Source: Gemmatimonadaceae bacterium (lineage in GTDB: Bacteria; Gemmatimonadota; Gemmatimonadetes; Gemmatimonadales; Gemmatimonadaceae). From it: a DNA stretch of 64,000 bases. A program made the translations under genes and the position numbers. Under the pieces are notes generated by a model that was not told the DNA's origin, ran no database searches, and worked only from the letters and a program-made list of their open reading frames with translations. The DNA lies in the NCBI GenBank assembly GCA_020851455.1, contig JADZCT010000020.1, positions 1 to 64,000 on the forward strand. The letters run 5' to 3'. This document shows positions 1 through 7,024 of the stretch, piece after piece. Position 1 is the stretch's first letter; each line of letters starts with the position of its first letter.

Positions 1-229
1 ACGAGCCCGCGCGACCGAGCCCGCGGCGGGATGGGCCTTCGCTCCCCGACCCCTGTGTTCAGCGCACGCCATGATGCCGCCGCGCAGAAACCCCCGCACG
101 AGCCCCCGCCCAACGAGCCCGCCGCGCATGAGCCCGCGCGAACCGAGTGCGCCGGTGCCGAATGGCGCGCCATTCCCAACGCGTGCACCCGAGCCGCAGT
201 AACCCCAGTCAGTTGTCGTTGGGGCCGCG

Positions 230-355
230 CTCTAACGATGACGTTCTGCTGCGGGGCTCGCAGCGGGCGAACCGATACACGCTGCATCACGCCGGTGGCG
301 GGCGCAACTCATTGATGCCGCCGCACGCCCCGGCAGCAGCAACGGCTTGTTAGCG
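230..355 (-). repeat. attC recombination site of cassette 4
   Basis: Imperfect inverted repeat with core sites at both ends; inner arms gacgttctgctgcgggg / ccccggcagcagcaacggc; starts 3 bp after the stop of the 71-aa ORF. Confidence 0.85.
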
Positions 356-600
356 AGCCTACTTCTCGGCGTCACCGTGTTCCCGCATGAGCTCGTCGAA
401 GCGGACCCAGCCGAGCCGATAGCCGTACTTCTTGTTCTTCGGGACCCAAACAATAGTTCCATTCGACACTTTAAGGCGCCCGTGAGCTTCACCATTGCGT
501 TTGATAGAGAACTCGACGTCAGCTTTCCCGAGCGGCCGTTCAGGGATGGTGAAATTCACTTCGTGCTGAGCCATTGAGGATCTCCTTGAGGACTCGCTAA
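236..600 (-). mobile_element. Integron gene cassette 4 (365 bp), carrying the 71-aa ORF
   Basis: Bounded by core sites (plus-strand ctctaac 230-236 and cgctaac 595-601). The 5' boundary GTTAGCG (minus) is the exact reverse complement of R'' CGCTAAC (plus gttagcg 349-355). Confidence 0.85.
359..574 (-). CDS. Conserved hypothetical protein, 71 aa (cassette 4 cargo)
   Basis: ORF MAQHEVNFTIPERPLGKADVEFSIKRNGEAHGRLKVSNGTIVWVPKNKKYGYRLGW...; fills the cassette; the only sensible ORF in it. Confidence 0.75.
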   Translation of the reverse strand: MAQHEVNFTIPERPLGKADVEFSIKRNGEAHGRLKVSNGTIVWVPKNKKYGYRLGWVRFDELMREHGDAEK

Positions 601-720
601 CGAGCTGGCGTTCTGCTGCGGGGAACGTCGGAGCGCATACGATGATGCTCGTTCAAGATGGTTGGGAGCGCAACCATGATGCCCCTGCGCACCCCGCCAG
701 CAGCAACGCCTCGGTTAGCT
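595..720 (-). repeat. attC recombination site of cassette 3
   Basis: cgctaac (595-601) ... gttagct (714-720), with inner arms ggcgttctgctgcgggg / ccccgccagcagcaacgcc. Confidence 0.9.
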
Positions 721-785
721 CGCAACGCGCGCAATAGATGAACGACCCAACTCGCACGGTCGTTTGCGCGCAACAACGCGGCGGG

Positions 786-1754
786 TCAGCCCCCGGCTGG
801 AGGCGTAGCGAATTGTACCGGGAATTGAAGCTGTGGGTGCTGCCAATTCTTCACATAAACGCGACCCGTATCGCTCGCGAGAACCTTAGTCGCTGGTCCC
901 TTCTCGAATAGGAGCGTCATTAGGTGATATGCCGAGAGCACCTGTTCCTGCAACTCCTGAGACGCTTCGAGGTCATCCACAGCCACCTTCACTGAGCGGG
1001 CTTCGTCGCGATCTATCCGCCTCCCGTGGCTCTTGTGCTTAGACGCGTCATTGAAATGACGCGCCGTCTTTCGGGCGAGCGCGTTTCGTCTCCGCTCTTC
1101 GCGAAACATGTATTGACCCAGCCAACCGGCCACCATGCGCTCGCCGTAGTCGAGGGCGTTCCGGGCCTCTTGGAGCAATGCTGGACCCACTGATTGCAGT
1201 ATCGGTGCCCACACATGCGCGGCCGTTGTATTCGCGAGTATTTCCTTCTTCGCACGTTCAAACTGATCAACAATCGCCCGCGCCGAGAGCGCACCCGAAC
1301 CGACGATGAACTGTGGATCGATTGGGCCGAGTTGACTCTGACGTCCCATGACGATGCGATCCGACGCCAGGCTGATCATCGTCCCCGCCGACATCGCGTA
1401 TGTCGGCACGATTACTTCGATATACTGAAACTTGCTGCGTAGATAGGCGACGATGGTCTCGGCGGCATTGGTGACGCCACCTGGAGTGTGGAGAACCAGT
1501 GTCAGTCCCTTCGCCCACGTCATTCCGTAGATCACGGACATTAGTCCGTTGAGATCTTCTGACGTGATCTGCACGTTTTGCGGTGGCGCCTGAGGCTTCT
1601 GCAAGAATGCGGCACCGTACAGCAGCACATGCCGGTCGCCACGAAGTCGCCCGATTTCCTTGAGTGCAGCCGTCTGGCGAGCCTGAAGCCAGTTCGGCTT
1701 CGCAGGATCGGGGGTGGCTTCAAACTCTGAGAGAACCTCGTTCCATGACGGCAC
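786..1754 (-). CDS. SDH (serine dehydrogenase proteinase)-type ClpP-fold serine protease
   Basis: 322 aa; motifs LHTPGG, YAMSAGTMISLASD, and LGPIDPQF typical of SDH/ClpP-fold proteases. Confidence 0.8.
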   Translation of the reverse strand: MPSWNEVLSEFEATPDPAKPNWLQARQTAALKEIGRLRGDRHVLLYGAAFLQKPQAPPQNVQITSEDLNGLMSVIYGMTWAKGLTLVLHTPGGVTNAAETIVAYLRSKFQYIEVIVPTYAMSAGTMISLASDRIVMGRQSQLGPIDPQFIVGSGALSARAIVDQFERAKKEILANTTAAHVWAPILQSVGPALLQEARNALDYGERMVAGWLGQYMFREERRRNALARKTARHFNDASKHKSHGRRIDRDEARSVKVAVDDLEASQELQEQVLSAYHLMTLLFEKGPATKVLASDTGRVYVKNWQHPQLQFPVQFATPPAGG

Positions 1755-1760
1755 GAGCGG

Positions 1761-1958
1761 TTACTGAGACGGCCAGATCGTCAGCGACAGGGGAGTATCG
1801 GGGGCCAACGAGGTCTCTGCGGCCGGCGGTGAGAGCGCCTTCGTCACGTCGGCGAGACGCGCCAGCTCGATATAGGCCGCATACTGACGGGCCGCTTTCG
1901 CGATGACACCGTCAACGTGGTCATCCAGTCGTGGCTTCTTAGGCTGTGGAGTCATCAA
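1761..1958 (-). CDS. Small hypothetical protein (65 aa), cassette partner of the SDH protease
   Basis: Same strand, ends 6 bp before the protease start; inside the same cassette. Confidence 0.6.
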   Translation of the reverse strand: MMTPQPKKPRLDDHVDGVIAKAARQYAAYIELARLADVTKALSPPAAETSLAPDTPLSLTIWPSQ

Positions 1959-1997
1959 TTAGAGTATCGTGTGCTCATGAACGGAATGCAAGTTGCG

Positions 1998-2092
1998 AGC
2001 TAACGTTTGCTTCTGCTGCGGACACTCCATAAAACGCGGGCGCGAAGCGCCCGCTTCCATACCGTGGCCGTCGGCAGCAAGCATCGTTATCC
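1998..2092 (-). repeat. attC recombination site of cassette 2
   Basis: agctaac (1998-2004) ... gttatcc (2086-2092); arms cttctgctgcgg / cggcagcaagc; internal hairpin gggcgcgaagcgccc. Confidence 0.88.
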
Positions 2093-2133
2093 GGTGCCCG
2101 CGTCAATCCCTACCGACGCGACTAGAAGTTGAG

Positions 2134-2754
2134 TCAGTCCGCAGGCTTCTCAGTGAGCGACTGAGCCTGCTTCGGATACTTCCGAATGAGCCACTTCAGG
2201 ACTTCGACCTGTTCGTCTCCTGCAGCTCTTCGAATCTGCGTAAGAAGCTGAGTAGCCTTCGGGCGCGGCAGCGTGATGTTCTGCGCCCCTTCGTTGCATA
2301 CTGAGCAGAGCGCACGAAGATTCTGTGCGTCGTCCGTTCCTCCGTGACTCAGGTCGATAATGTGACCAAGATGAAGCCGAGTCTTTCGCGAAGGGTCTGA
2401 TGGATGCGGCTCACCAGCGACAGCGCCGCACATCTGGCACGTGAACCCGTTTCGATCCAGCACGAAGGCACGGGTCTCCTTGGAGATGCCAGAAGAGAAC
2501 ACCGGCAGCGGCTTCGTGTTCACCAGTCGATACTGCCCTGGCTTTAGAGCGCTGTTGTCTTTGTCGGTCTCGATGTTCATCCCTTCGAGCTGCCGCAACT
2601 CACGGACGCGACGGGCCCACTCGGTGATGCCGCCCGCGACCTTCCGGAGTGTCTTCCACTCGATGACTTCACCGACGTGAACGAGGAAATACTCTCGGAG
2701 CTTTGCTCGTGCGCCGCCGCCAGAGGCGGGCTTCTTTCGCTTCTTCGCGGGCAT
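2134..2754 (-). CDS. HNH endonuclease (putative restriction enzyme)
   Basis: 206 aa; FTCQMC...LHLGHIIDLSHGGTDDAQNLRALCSVCN matches an HNH motif with zinc-binding CxxC pairs. Confidence 0.85.
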   Translation of the reverse strand: MPAKKRKKPASGGGARAKLREYFLVHVGEVIEWKTLRKVAGGITEWARRVRELRQLEGMNIETDKDNSALKPGQYRLVNTKPLPVFSSGISKETRAFVLDRNGFTCQMCGAVAGEPHPSDPSRKTRLHLGHIIDLSHGGTDDAQNLRALCSVCNEGAQNITLPRPKATQLLTQIRRAAGDEQVEVLKWLIRKYPKQAQSLTEKPAD

Positions 2755-2756
2755 AT

Positions 2757-3752
2757 CTATCCGACGTGGAGCGCGATTTGTTCAGGAAGCAGCTTAGAGG
2801 CTCGGCCCGCGAGCGCGTCTCTGATGGCGGATCCGACTGCGGCTGCCACTGGCGGAGGAAACGCGTTGCCGACCTGACGATACGAAGCGGTCTTCCGACC
2901 CTCAAACTTCCAAGAGTCCGGGAATCCCTGGATGCGCGCTGTCATTCGCACAGTCAACTTCGGTATCCCGTCGATGGGGAAGCCTGCATCGGGAGCTTCG
3001 TTCGCGAGTCCCCGTCCGTCGACGTTCAACAACTTCCAAGCCTCGCGTGCTCGTGTCGGGCCGAGATCGGGGCCGCCGTGCAACTTAGAGCCGCCCACGA
3101 GTGTCGGGCCGATTCCATTTGCGGCTTGCGCCCAAGCGAAAGCGCCTGGCCATCCGCGTGACGCCATGAGATCACGAAGCGTGCCGCCGACCGTTGGCGG
3201 TGAGGACACAGGACTTGGCCACGCGAATGTACGGAACGCCTTTGGCTTCAACGCAACGAGAATGAATCTCGGACGGAGCTGAGGAACTCCGAAGTTGCAG
3301 GCATTCAATACCTGCCAGTCGACTCGGTAGCCAAGCTTCTCGAGCTGCAACGCGATGGACGCGCGATAGCTCTTGAACTTTGCTGTTGCGAGGCCGGGAA
3401 CGTTCTCGAGCATCACTGCTGCTGGCTTGGACTCAGCCACTAGCCGGAGGGCCGTAGGGAACAGATCGCGTTGGTCATCCGGACCGAGCTGCTTGCCCGC
3501 GACGGAGAATGGAGGGCAAGGCACGCCACCTGCAAAGAGATCAATCCCGCGGAACTCGCGCCCTTCGAGGTTGCGCACATCCTCGTTCATAACGCGCCAC
3601 TCGGGCCGATTCGCCCGCAGCGTGCTCGCCGCGTGCGCATCCAGCTCGACGGCGGCGGCGTGACCGAACCCCGCGCGCTCTAAGCCCAGCGCTTGGCCAC
3701 CGGCCCCGGCGCAGATCTCGAGTGAAGTCAGTGTGTCAGTCATACGGCCCAA
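2757..3752 (-). CDS. DNA (cytosine-5-)-methyltransferase
   Basis: SLEICAGAGGQALGLERAGF (motif I), GGVPCPPFS (catalytic PC), ENVPG, RQVGNAFPPPVA (motif X). Confidence 0.93.
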   Translation of the reverse strand: MGRMTDTLTSLEICAGAGGQALGLERAGFGHAAAVELDAHAASTLRANRPEWRVMNEDVRNLEGREFRGIDLFAGGVPCPPFSVAGKQLGPDDQRDLFPTALRLVAESKPAAVMLENVPGLATAKFKSYRASIALQLEKLGYRVDWQVLNACNFGVPQLRPRFILVALKPKAFRTFAWPSPVSSPPTVGGTLRDLMASRGWPGAFAWAQAANGIGPTLVGGSKLHGGPDLGPTRAREAWKLLNVDGRGLANEAPDAGFPIDGIPKLTVRMTARIQGFPDSWKFEGRKTASYRQVGNAFPPPVAAAVGSAIRDALAGRASKLLPEQIALHVG

Positions 3753-3831
3753 TCTACAGACTCCGAAGGAAAGCCGAAAGAGCGAGAAAACGCGCGGGAA
3801 GACTCTCCCGCGGATGGGGGCGTCCGCATCC

Positions 3832-3925
3832 GGATAACGTCACGGTTCAGCTGCGAGGGCATATCATAAGACGCGGCGTAGCCGCGCACCATTACGCCCT
3901 CGTCTGCTGCAACCGGTTGTTAGGC
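3832..3925 (-). repeat. attC recombination site of cassette 1
   Basis: ggataac (3832-3838) ... gttaggc (3919-3925); arms cagctgcgagggc / gccctcgtctgctg; terminal hairpin gcggcgtagccgc. Confidence 0.88.
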
Positions 3926-3929
3926 AGCT

Positions 3930-4232
3930 TTATGTTGGCCAGCGGCCCGACGGTTTCGGTGAGTTGATGAAATCCCACACCTGCTGATTCATCCAGCCGT
4001 TGGCGGTTGACGACGTAACCTCGCAAAGAAAGAAGTTCCAGCCCTGCGCCGTAACGTGCAGCAATCCCGTAAGTGCCGCGAGGTCGCTCTTCGAGCAGAC
4101 AAGAATCGCGCCAGGGAAAATCGCAAGCCAGTTAACAATCTCAGAGCGCGTATCTAAGTGGCGGAGCACTAGATCCCGAGGGGCGTCGAAGGTCAGCAAG
4201 TATGTGCGAAACTCCGGCTGAGTGTATGTCAT
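3930..4232 (-). CDS. Hypothetical protein, 100 aa; possible ferredoxin-like (Cas2/SinR-like) fold
   Basis: ORF RTYLLTFDAPRD...ILVCSKSDLAALTGLL...FFLCEV; start overlaps the stop of the upstream gene (ATGA). Confidence 0.65.
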   Translation of the reverse strand: MTYTQPEFRTYLLTFDAPRDLVLRHLDTRSEIVNWLAIFPGAILVCSKSDLAALTGLLHVTAQGWNFFLCEVTSSTANGWMNQQVWDFINSPKPSGRWPT

Positions 4233-4612
4233 CGGAGCCCCTCTGGCCCGCTCGACAGGCGGGGCAGCGCAGGATTCGTGATTGCGTTAAGAGAGGTCGC
4301 ATCAATTCGAATCGGGCCGCCCTTAGACTGAAGGAGTTGAAGCGTTTCGTGTCGTAGTTGGTATTCCTCCGATTGGAGTTTGTCCGGGTTGCGGAACGCA
4401 AAGAACCCGAATCCCAAGCACGTCACCACGACAGGTAGCGCCGCCAGCAATAGCAGGCCAAGGACAACGGATGGTGATTCGCGGAACATGTACGCTACCG
4501 TGAGTGCTGTTGGCGACACAATTGCCGTGAGCCAGAGCATAGGGTTGAGCGCGCTCCGCACCCGTAGTCCCTTGGCCGCGGAGAATGACGAGCGGGACAT
4601 CGCGTCAAGCAT
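4229..4612 (-). CDS. Hypothetical membrane protein, about 2 TM helices
   Basis: 127 aa with two hydrophobic stretches; translationally coupled to the 100-aa ORF. Confidence 0.65.
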   Translation of the reverse strand: MLDAMSRSSFSAAKGLRVRSALNPMLWLTAIVSPTALTVAYMFRESPSVVLGLLLLAALPVVVTCLGFGFFAFRNPDKLQSEEYQLRHETLQLLQSKGGPIRIDATSLNAITNPALPRLSSGPEGLR

Positions 4613-4652
4613 ATTGTTGGCGCCCCTGTTCGGTATTCAGTTGGTCAAGCTG

Positions 4653-4876
4653 CCTAACTACGTAATTACACGACCACGTTATGCTGCACGGCAGCGTCAA
4701 TCGCTGCAGGGCCACGTCGCATATTGTGCACTCGATCGGCTGCCGGCGCAAACTATGTCACTTCACGGCAAGCAGTTGCAGTGCTGGTGTCCTTCGCGTA
4801 TCCGGATCTTATGCGGTGAAGGCCTGCTGCATAACGTGCGGTATCCGCCAATTTCGCCGTAGGCGTCGCCGGGGCC
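4653..4876 (-). other. Putative attI region (integron primary recombination site)
   Basis: Non-coding stretch between the intI 3' end and the first cassette; core-like sites gcctaac (4653-4659), gttatgc (4679-4685) and gcataac (4830-4836). Confidence 0.6.
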
Positions 4877-5887
4877 CTACAACCGGTCAGCCGGGCTCCG
4901 CACACCAAGACCACCCTTGTTCAGAACGTGGGTGTACCGCATGGTCGTCCGGACATCGGAATGCCCCAGCAGGGTCTGAACCGTCCGGATGTCAGCCCCG
5001 GATTCGAGCAAGTGCGTCGCAAATGAGTGACGCAGCGTATGTGCGGTCACGCGCTTGGTCAGCCCAAGGTCGCGCACGGCCTGTGCAATGGCGCGCTGAA
5101 CCACGGTCTCGTGCAGGTGGTGGCGGCGACGAGCGCCCTCCTGGTCCACGTATACCCGCGTCGCCGGAAACACGTACCACCAGGGCCAAGTGGCATCAGC
5201 GTCCCGATACTTCCGCAGTAATGCGGGCGGCAGGCCGTCCACTCGTACGCCGACCCTCCGGTCGTTCCGGAACTCGGCCAGCCCCGTTCGCAACCGCGCC
5301 TCGAGCGCCGCCACACAGACCTCGGCTAACGGTGTCCGGCGGTCCCTGCCACCCTTTCCCTGCCGCAGAACGATTTCGCGACGATCAACGTCCAGATCCT
5401 TTACACGCAGACTCAAACATTCGGAGATTCGCAGGCCACCGCCGTACATCAGCTGCGCACACAGCTTCACTGGCTCGGGCAGACGCCCCAACAGCCCCCG
5501 AACCTCGCCCTGAGACAGCACCACTGGCACGTACCGCGAACGTCGGGCGGGGGTAAGTCCGGGAATACGGGGGAGCGGCGTGCCCAGGACGGCTCCATAC
5601 AGAAACAGCAGCGCGGCCAGTGCCTGATTCTGTGTGCTGGCCGCCACTTGACCGCTCACCGCAAGGTCGGACAGAAAGCGCTTCACGTCATCCGGCCCAA
5701 GATCTCTCGGATGCCGCCGCCCGTGAAACACGATGTACCGCCGGATCCAGAAGACATACGCCTGCTCGGTCCGCACACTGTACCGCCGTTCCCGCAACCG
5801 TTGACGCACGATCTCGATCAGGCGAAGCCGTCGCTCCGGCTCCGGCGGCCCAAAAAGGTGTGATTCGGGAATGGGCGGCAATGGCAC
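4877..5887 (-). CDS. intI: Integron integrase (IntI-type tyrosine recombinase), GTG start
   Basis: GGGLRISECLSLRVKD, LRQGKGGRDRRTPL, HTLRHSFATHLLESGADIRTVQTLLGHSDVRTTMRYTHVLNKGGLGVRSPADRL, plus the IntI-specific patch DATWPWWYVFPATRVYVD. Confidence 0.95.
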   Translation of the reverse strand: MPLPPIPESHLFGPPEPERRLRLIEIVRQRLRERRYSVRTEQAYVFWIRRYIVFHGRRHPRDLGPDDVKRFLSDLAVSGQVAASTQNQALAALLFLYGAVLGTPLPRIPGLTPARRSRYVPVVLSQGEVRGLLGRLPEPVKLCAQLMYGGGLRISECLSLRVKDLDVDRREIVLRQGKGGRDRRTPLAEVCVAALEARLRTGLAEFRNDRRVGVRVDGLPPALLRKYRDADATWPWWYVFPATRVYVDQEGARRRHHLHETVVQRAIAQAVRDLGLTKRVTAHTLRHSFATHLLESGADIRTVQTLLGHSDVRTTMRYTHVLNKGGLGVRSPADRL

Positions 5888-6103
5888 GATGCAACGATGG
5901 CGACTCCATCGGAGCCGCCATCATCACTTCGCCGCACGCTGCAACAATATCCCGTACGACACCCCCACAATCACGCCCTACTCGCCTGGGCCACCAGCCA
6001 GAAGATCAAGGTATCGAACGCTGGCGGCACGAATACAACACCCAGCGTCCCACACCTACATCGCGCCTCCCCCCCGTTTACCCCGTGCGCGTTCGCCCTG
6101 CAG

Positions 6104-6742
6104 TTAGCGACGCGGAGACGCGAGTAGCCAACGGCCCGGCAGTTCCGTAGCTCCCCACGTACGTCGCTCGTTGCACATCAGGGCCGCATCGGCCTCGGCA
6201 ATTCTCGCACGCGCCGCCCACACGGCGGCGTTGCGCGGGGCCTGCTCGACAAACTCCACGAAATGCGTTTCACCGAACCGCTCGCGCAGGATCTCGGTCA
6301 CGCCAGGCGCGGCGAAGTCGTGCAGCTCGACGCACAGCGCCGAACTGTGGAGCCATGGCACCCGAGCCGGATCGAGCAGATCGCGCTCGCACCCTTCGCA
6401 ATCGCAGAAGACGAGGGCCCCATGGTTCATGTTCACCGGCAGCGCTGCCAGCACCGCGGCGTCGGCGAGCCCGAGGGCGCGCACACGGTTTGCGACGCCG
6501 TTCAGTTCCGCCGACTGCATCGTGCGTCTGCGAAAGACGTCATCCGCCTCGAAGGCGTACACCGTGGCGCCGGGGAGCCGCATGGCCGCGCCGGTCGAGT
6601 ACAGGCCGAGCGCGCTACCAACGTTCACGGCGACCCTCCACCCGCGCGCAAGCTCGCGCTCGACCCACTCGTGAACCTCGCACTCATAGGCGCCGAGCAG
6701 AACCGGCGCCTCGCACTCCGCTTCTCGTTCGACGACCAGCAA
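6104..6742 (-). CDS. FkbM-like/SAM-dependent methyltransferase-like protein
   Basis: NVGSALGLYSTGAA..., YAFEADD, ALVFCDCEGCERDLL resemble FkbM-type motifs. Confidence 0.55.
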   Translation of the reverse strand: MLVVEREAECEAPVLLGAYECEVHEWVERELARGWRVAVNVGSALGLYSTGAAMRLPGATVYAFEADDVFRRRTMQSAELNGVANRVRALGLADAAVLAALPVNMNHGALVFCDCEGCERDLLDPARVPWLHSSALCVELHDFAAPGVTEILRERFGETHFVEFVEQAPRNAAVWAARARIAEADAALMCNERRTWGATELPGRWLLASPRR

Positions 6743-7024
6743 CTGGCCCGCGAACGGTCCGGCCGCAATGCGGCCCCCGGTCCGTTTCCAGAGCCGCGCG
6801 CGCGTACGCCGGCCCGGTGCCCACCGCGCAACGCCCAGCCGCCTGCGCAGCGCGAGCGGTACAAGCTGGTGGTACGTGCTCCGAAAGGCGGAGGCAATAC
6901 TCAGGTATGCCCTCGTGACTGGCCAGGGTACGCGGAAGTGTGCTTCAGGCAGCCATCACTGGCAAGCTGGTACCCTCGCGTCGGATCACGGCACGAGCCG
7001 CCCTGGTGACGAAGCCGAAGGCGC

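Follow-up and report, generated by a model that had tools for sequence, protein, structure and literature searches.

A very probable reverse integron in a Gemmatimonadota genome, from a class in which this layout is the rule

We describe an integron in which the attachment site and the cassettes follow the 3′ end of the integrase gene on the same strand, and we find that this reversed layout is the rule, the normal one, in the bacterial class to which the genome belongs. The window (the whole stretch of DNA analysed, 64,000 nt) comprises bases 1-64000 of the 353-kb contig C49, part of a 2.96-Mb assembly in 139 contigs. As read from its sequence, the locus is very probably a chromosomal 'reverse' integron of a Gemmatimonadota bacterium, operating by IntI-mediated recombination between attI and attC. 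The reversed topology had been proposed from the sequence alone and is confirmed here: attI and four attC sites lie 3′ of intI, on the intI strand (Table 1).

Judged by RpoB identities, the genome is that of a member of the Gemmatimonadota. Its RpoB is 84.6% identical to the RpoB of a Gemmatimonadetes MAG (L081), against about 52% or less (long stretches) for records from Acidobacteria, Planctomycetia and Treponema, and likewise about 52% or less for those from Gammaproteobacteria, Actinomycetota, Calditrichia and Anaerolineales.

Table 1. Features of the integron, in window coordinates; bit scores of attC sites are those of the independent scorer unless another model is named.
Feature	Coordinates	Strand	Content and scores
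intI, integron integrase	4877-5887	-	336 aa; GTG start; TIGR02249, PDB 2a3v, family alignment
14-bp inverted repeat, intI-attI interval	arms 4675-4688 and 4825-4838	.	136-nt spacing
attI core	4652-4670	-	TAATTACGTAG^TTAGGC; predicted crossover after G4658; on the basis of the motif
Cassette 1	3838-4657	-	ORFs 4229-4612 and 3930-4232; attC D at end
attC D (cassette 1)	3832-3925	-	44.3 bits; Infernal R1 30.5 bits; R2 61.4 bits; palindrome 3835-3922
Cassette 2	2004-3837	-	C5-cytosine DNA methyltransferase 2757-3752; HNH nuclease 2134-2754
attC C (cassette 2)	1998-2092	-	29.5 bits; R2 39.2 bits; palindrome 2001-2089
Cassette 3	601-2003	-	small ORF 1761-1958; ClpP-like SDH-type serine protease 786-1754
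attC B (cassette 3)	595-720	-	32.4 bits; R2 44.1 bits; palindrome 598-717
Cassette 4	236-600	-	ORF 359-574, 71 aa; attC A at end
attC A (cassette 4)	230-355	-	37.4 bits; R2 55.4 bits; palindrome 233-352
Cassette 5, start only	1-235	-	cut by contig end

The attI core lies 209 nt past the intI stop, in keeping with the earlier claim that attI lies on that side of the gene. With the core downstream, both attI and the array are on the 3′ side of intI. We described the site by the motif AAT-N4-7-GTTA[GA][AG], which is present 3′ of intI and on the intI strand in 19 of 58 class loci (0.27 in shuffled sequence) and in none of them in the three other placements (opposite strand, upstream, upstream opposite). 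Because the motif was first noted in the stretches 3′ of intI of these same class loci, the independent test consists of the other placements and the ordinary loci alone; of 71 ordinary loci, 12 have it 5′ of intI on the opposite strand and none has it 3′. The attI-like motif tracks topology, being 3′ of intI where the layout is reversed and 5′ where it is ordinary.

The intI-attI interval also contains a 14-bp inverted repeat, the arms of which are partly kept in the closest relative, L223. Two identities considered for this repeat were set aside: an extra cassette (it is without full attC arms) and a terminator (it is without a T run).

In the proposed mechanism, IntI would recombine the folded bottom strand of the attC of circular cassettes with attI. 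Given that attI lies about 210 nt past the intI stop, new cassettes would go in between intI and cassette 1, where they would be read in the intI direction. Their expression would draw on a promoter in the intI-attI interval, on read-through from intI, or on both. We infer the recombination activity, the use of the bottom strand and the route of cassette expression from the sequence.

Read-through could couple integrase and cassette expression: intI and the cassettes would be transcribed as a single unit starting at the intI promoter, and bursts of integrase would raise the expression of fresh cassettes. This proposal concerns expression alone and is compatible with the reverse-integron explanation; we rate it tentatively, somewhat below even. 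The shared strand and the distance of 264 nt that separates the first cassette ORF from the intI stop are consistent with it. In the window, no terminator-like site was found between intI and cassette 1, and such sites are not enriched after intI in relatives (5 seen vs 4.75 expected), which leaves coupling possible, but little weight attaches to the lack of a consensus terminator. On the intI strand of the interval, promoter-like scores are slightly raised in relatives (mean 7.15 vs 6.38 shuffled, sd 0.30) and leave room for a separate cassette promoter; moreover, a putative Pc has been described in Treponema amplicons spanning intI, attI and cassette 1 (PMC4909258). No consensus promoter was found within 1-6800. 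Just as possible as coupling is that the cassettes have a promoter of their own in the intI-attI interval.

Next, we consider the attC sites. For scoring we used 58 sites from ordinary-topology loci outside the class, aligned without gaps, with both sequence and pairs contributing to the score. This independent scorer places all four sites on the minus strand at 29.5-44.3 bits, which agrees with the four sites of the earlier reading; the sequence-only reading had named as the contrary outcome that attC models score no site, and here 4 of 4 are recovered. Across both strands of the 64 kb, no site other than these four scores at least 20 bits. Shuffled sequence (768 kb) reaches at most 22.8, and the four sites themselves give 6-10 bits when read on the plus strand. 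They are the only four imperfect palindromes of the form TAAC...GTTA in the window, with palindrome scores of 13.5-15.9 compared to 11.6 for the best among ten shuffled windows. The polarity of an attC is marked by the extrahelical bases of its L″ box, and in all four sites, read on the minus strand, two more bases are left unpaired in the 5′ arm than in the 3′ arm.

Infernal model R1, built from those same ordinary-topology sites and thus free of sites from the window or the class, matched site D in the window (E=2e-4) and did not match sites A, B and C; with filters off, the full-length match to site D was lost too, probably a consequence of long variable loops. R1 recovered site D alone, and the directional scorer and a class model, R2, were built for this reason. 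R2 finds 4 of 4 attC in the window with E of 1e-6 to 1e-11, the four being themselves among its 34 training rows. Pair covariation in the class attC alignment amounts to 96 double-change cells vs 28 when shuffled; in that alignment, loops are filled with random letters and left out of use. The attC close their cassettes and share a conserved structure rather than a conserved sequence. An Rfam gathering scan gave 0 matches; no attC model matched, and the scan is therefore no test of attC.

To place the locus among its relatives, we turn to the class as a whole, in which an IntI over the cut-off occurs in 131 of 394 sampled genomes. The survey covered 60 intI loci with flanks of at most 7 kb on either side (407 kb searched upstream vs 267 kb downstream) and an attC threshold of at least 25 bits. 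On the intI strand 3′ of the gene we found 116 attC; the ordinary layout, 5′ of intI, accounts for 1, and the two other placements for 0 and 1. At least one downstream attC is present in 34 loci, all of which are reversed; one of these, L234, has one weak attC on each side of intI. Of 31 well-flanked loci, 10 have no downstream attC. Beyond the class, reversed loci number 11 and ordinary ones 30 among 80 from genomes, and the corresponding numbers for 80 loci from a viral collection are 10 and 41; one locus in these two sets is mixed. The description of the layout as uncommon is thus not upheld for the class. No synteny of the gene upstream of intI with relatives was seen.

These counts also bear on whether the locus could be an artefact of assembly or rearrangement, that is, an ordinary integron misjoined, in the wrong orientation, either to an intI of foreign origin or to an integrase-less array. 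The array does lie at the end of a contig in an assembly of 139 contigs. Nevertheless, the same order recurs across the 34 class loci and refutes the artefact reading in the relatives; some of them are located inside single-contig chromosomes (G039, G090, G140, G203 and G138), where the layout is no assembly effect. The attI-like core is also placed to match the reversed layout. We therefore regard an artefact as very improbable.

The integrase gene itself is on the minus strand, as the first reading had it. Its product scores 392.5 bits against TIGR02249 (cut-off 265), and its top relative of solved structure is the Vibrio cholerae IntI (PDB 2a3v, E=4e-79). The catalytic residues R153, K178, H283, R286, H309 and Y318 fall in invariant columns of the family alignment (A1), and the integron-specific insert DRRVGVRVDGLPPALLRKYRDADATWPWWYVFP aligns with that of other IntIs. 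The chance that the locus is a Xer-type recombinase beside unrelated repeats, with no integron, is negligible: XerC/D-like genes are also present in the genome, but the product far exceeds the integron cut-off and reaches 146.6 and 138.5 bits where the XerC and XerD equivalog models require 335 and 330, and the attC sites are recovered by an independent model, which together refute that reading. Accordingly, a placement with XerC/D outside the integron integrases, which the earlier reading had held against itself, is not what the models return.

We then asked where this IntI falls in a tree of 109 IntIs (322 columns). It is a quick tree with rows picked by similarity to the window, and its counts are therefore no estimate of the reversed share in nature. 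The window IntI groups with reversed IntIs, as anticipated: 44 rows, all reversed and the window among them, are set apart from the rest by a branch whose SH-aLRT support is 95. This block holds all class rows together with rows from Acidobacteriota, Planctomycetota, Actinomycetota and Treponema. Topology labels require 5 changes on the tree compared to 36.5 when shuffled. Reversed rows outside the block come from a gammaproteobacterial MAG, an Acidobacteriota pair and two groups of viral-collection contigs (L120, L157, L162, L163, L166, L167, L169, L173, L178 and L187 are such contigs). The AU test does not reject one origin for the whole set of 57 reversed rows (p-AU 0.074).

L223, L233 and L229 are the nearest relatives of the window IntI. 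L223, at 77% identity, comes from a different genus of the same family, and IntIs from the window's own genus whose arrays were scored reach about 51-53% identity. Since the closest IntI is from another genus, the history of IntI appears to depart from that of the species, by horizontal transfer or paralogy.

Every credible cassette gene shares the intI strand, as had been claimed. The limits of cassette 1 were set by the attI and attC crossovers, and profile searches gave no family match for its ORFs. Cassette 2 is probably a restriction-modification or phage-defence cassette, from its domains (PF00145, 231 bits; PF01844, 36.7 bits) and from PADLOC. In cassette 3, the ClpP-like serine protease (PF01972, 71 bits) is a gene carried on an integron cassette.

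Base 1 of the window is base 1 of C49, and the array is therefore cut off. Across the genome, R2 finds one further attC beyond the four of the window, at C105:1495-1554. The ORF closed by this site runs in from the beginning of contig C105, and for this reason the final cassette of the window array may lie on C105. At the start of C105 (L277, 1-1500), the ORF has a near-duplicate block, VPQWSSILMLRNL[RK]SPETYFQAAFRVQSPWS, which may be an assembly artefact. Just past the C105 attC, a Fic/DOC protein gene (L275, 1567-2196, minus strand) adjoins a MazE-like antitoxin gene.

Reversed integrases are well documented (PMC3607928, PMC4909258, PMC6557892), and the sequence-only reading had named Treponema denticola as an example. 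'Reverse' or 'unusual' integrons, with intI in the cassette direction, have been described in T. denticola (Coleman 2004, as cited in PMC6557892), Acinetobacter baumannii, Chlorobium phaeobacteroides and Blastopirellula marina (PMC6557892). Treponema loci with unusual integrons have been examined (PMC3607928), and reverse integrons are attributed to the Spirochaetota generally (PMC9668308). Integrons are known in Gemmatimonadota (PMC8618304); a search that took in few subscription papers returned no paper giving their orientation in this phylum, and we claim no priority.

As in the window, the Treponema intI is transcribed toward attI, in the cassette direction, and the Treponema IntI L102 belongs to the same all-reversed block of the tree. 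It is from another phylum, however, and the window IntI is 43% identical to it; compared with Treponema, the window integron has GC-rich attC of the Gemmatimonadota type and a short known array. The integrons of C. phaeobacteroides, B. marina and A. baumannii have the same gene order, according to their description in PMC6557892 alone. With class 1 and Vibrio-type integrons, the window locus shares the IntI family, the attC fold, the attC polarity relative to the cassette gene and an attI core with a GTTRRRY crossover; in those integrons, by contrast, intI and the array are divergent, with attI at the 5′ end of intI.

Taken alone, the window locus is an ordinary example of the published reverse integron type. 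What is added here is the survey: reversal is the rule in the class, attI moves along with it, and topology follows IntI ancestry. With reversal the rule in Gemmatimonadota, tools and primers that assume attI 5′ of intI would search the wrong side. Further still, the reversed layout might be ancient and fixed in one large branch of IntI that extends over several phyla, having seldom switched in either direction, with integrase and cassettes transcribed together, although we consider this whole scenario rather unlikely. If true, it would mean a regulatory mode unlike the divergent Pc/PintI arrangement. The class loci offer a natural comparison set in which to look for any effect of intI orientation on the control of the integrase and on the expression of cassettes.
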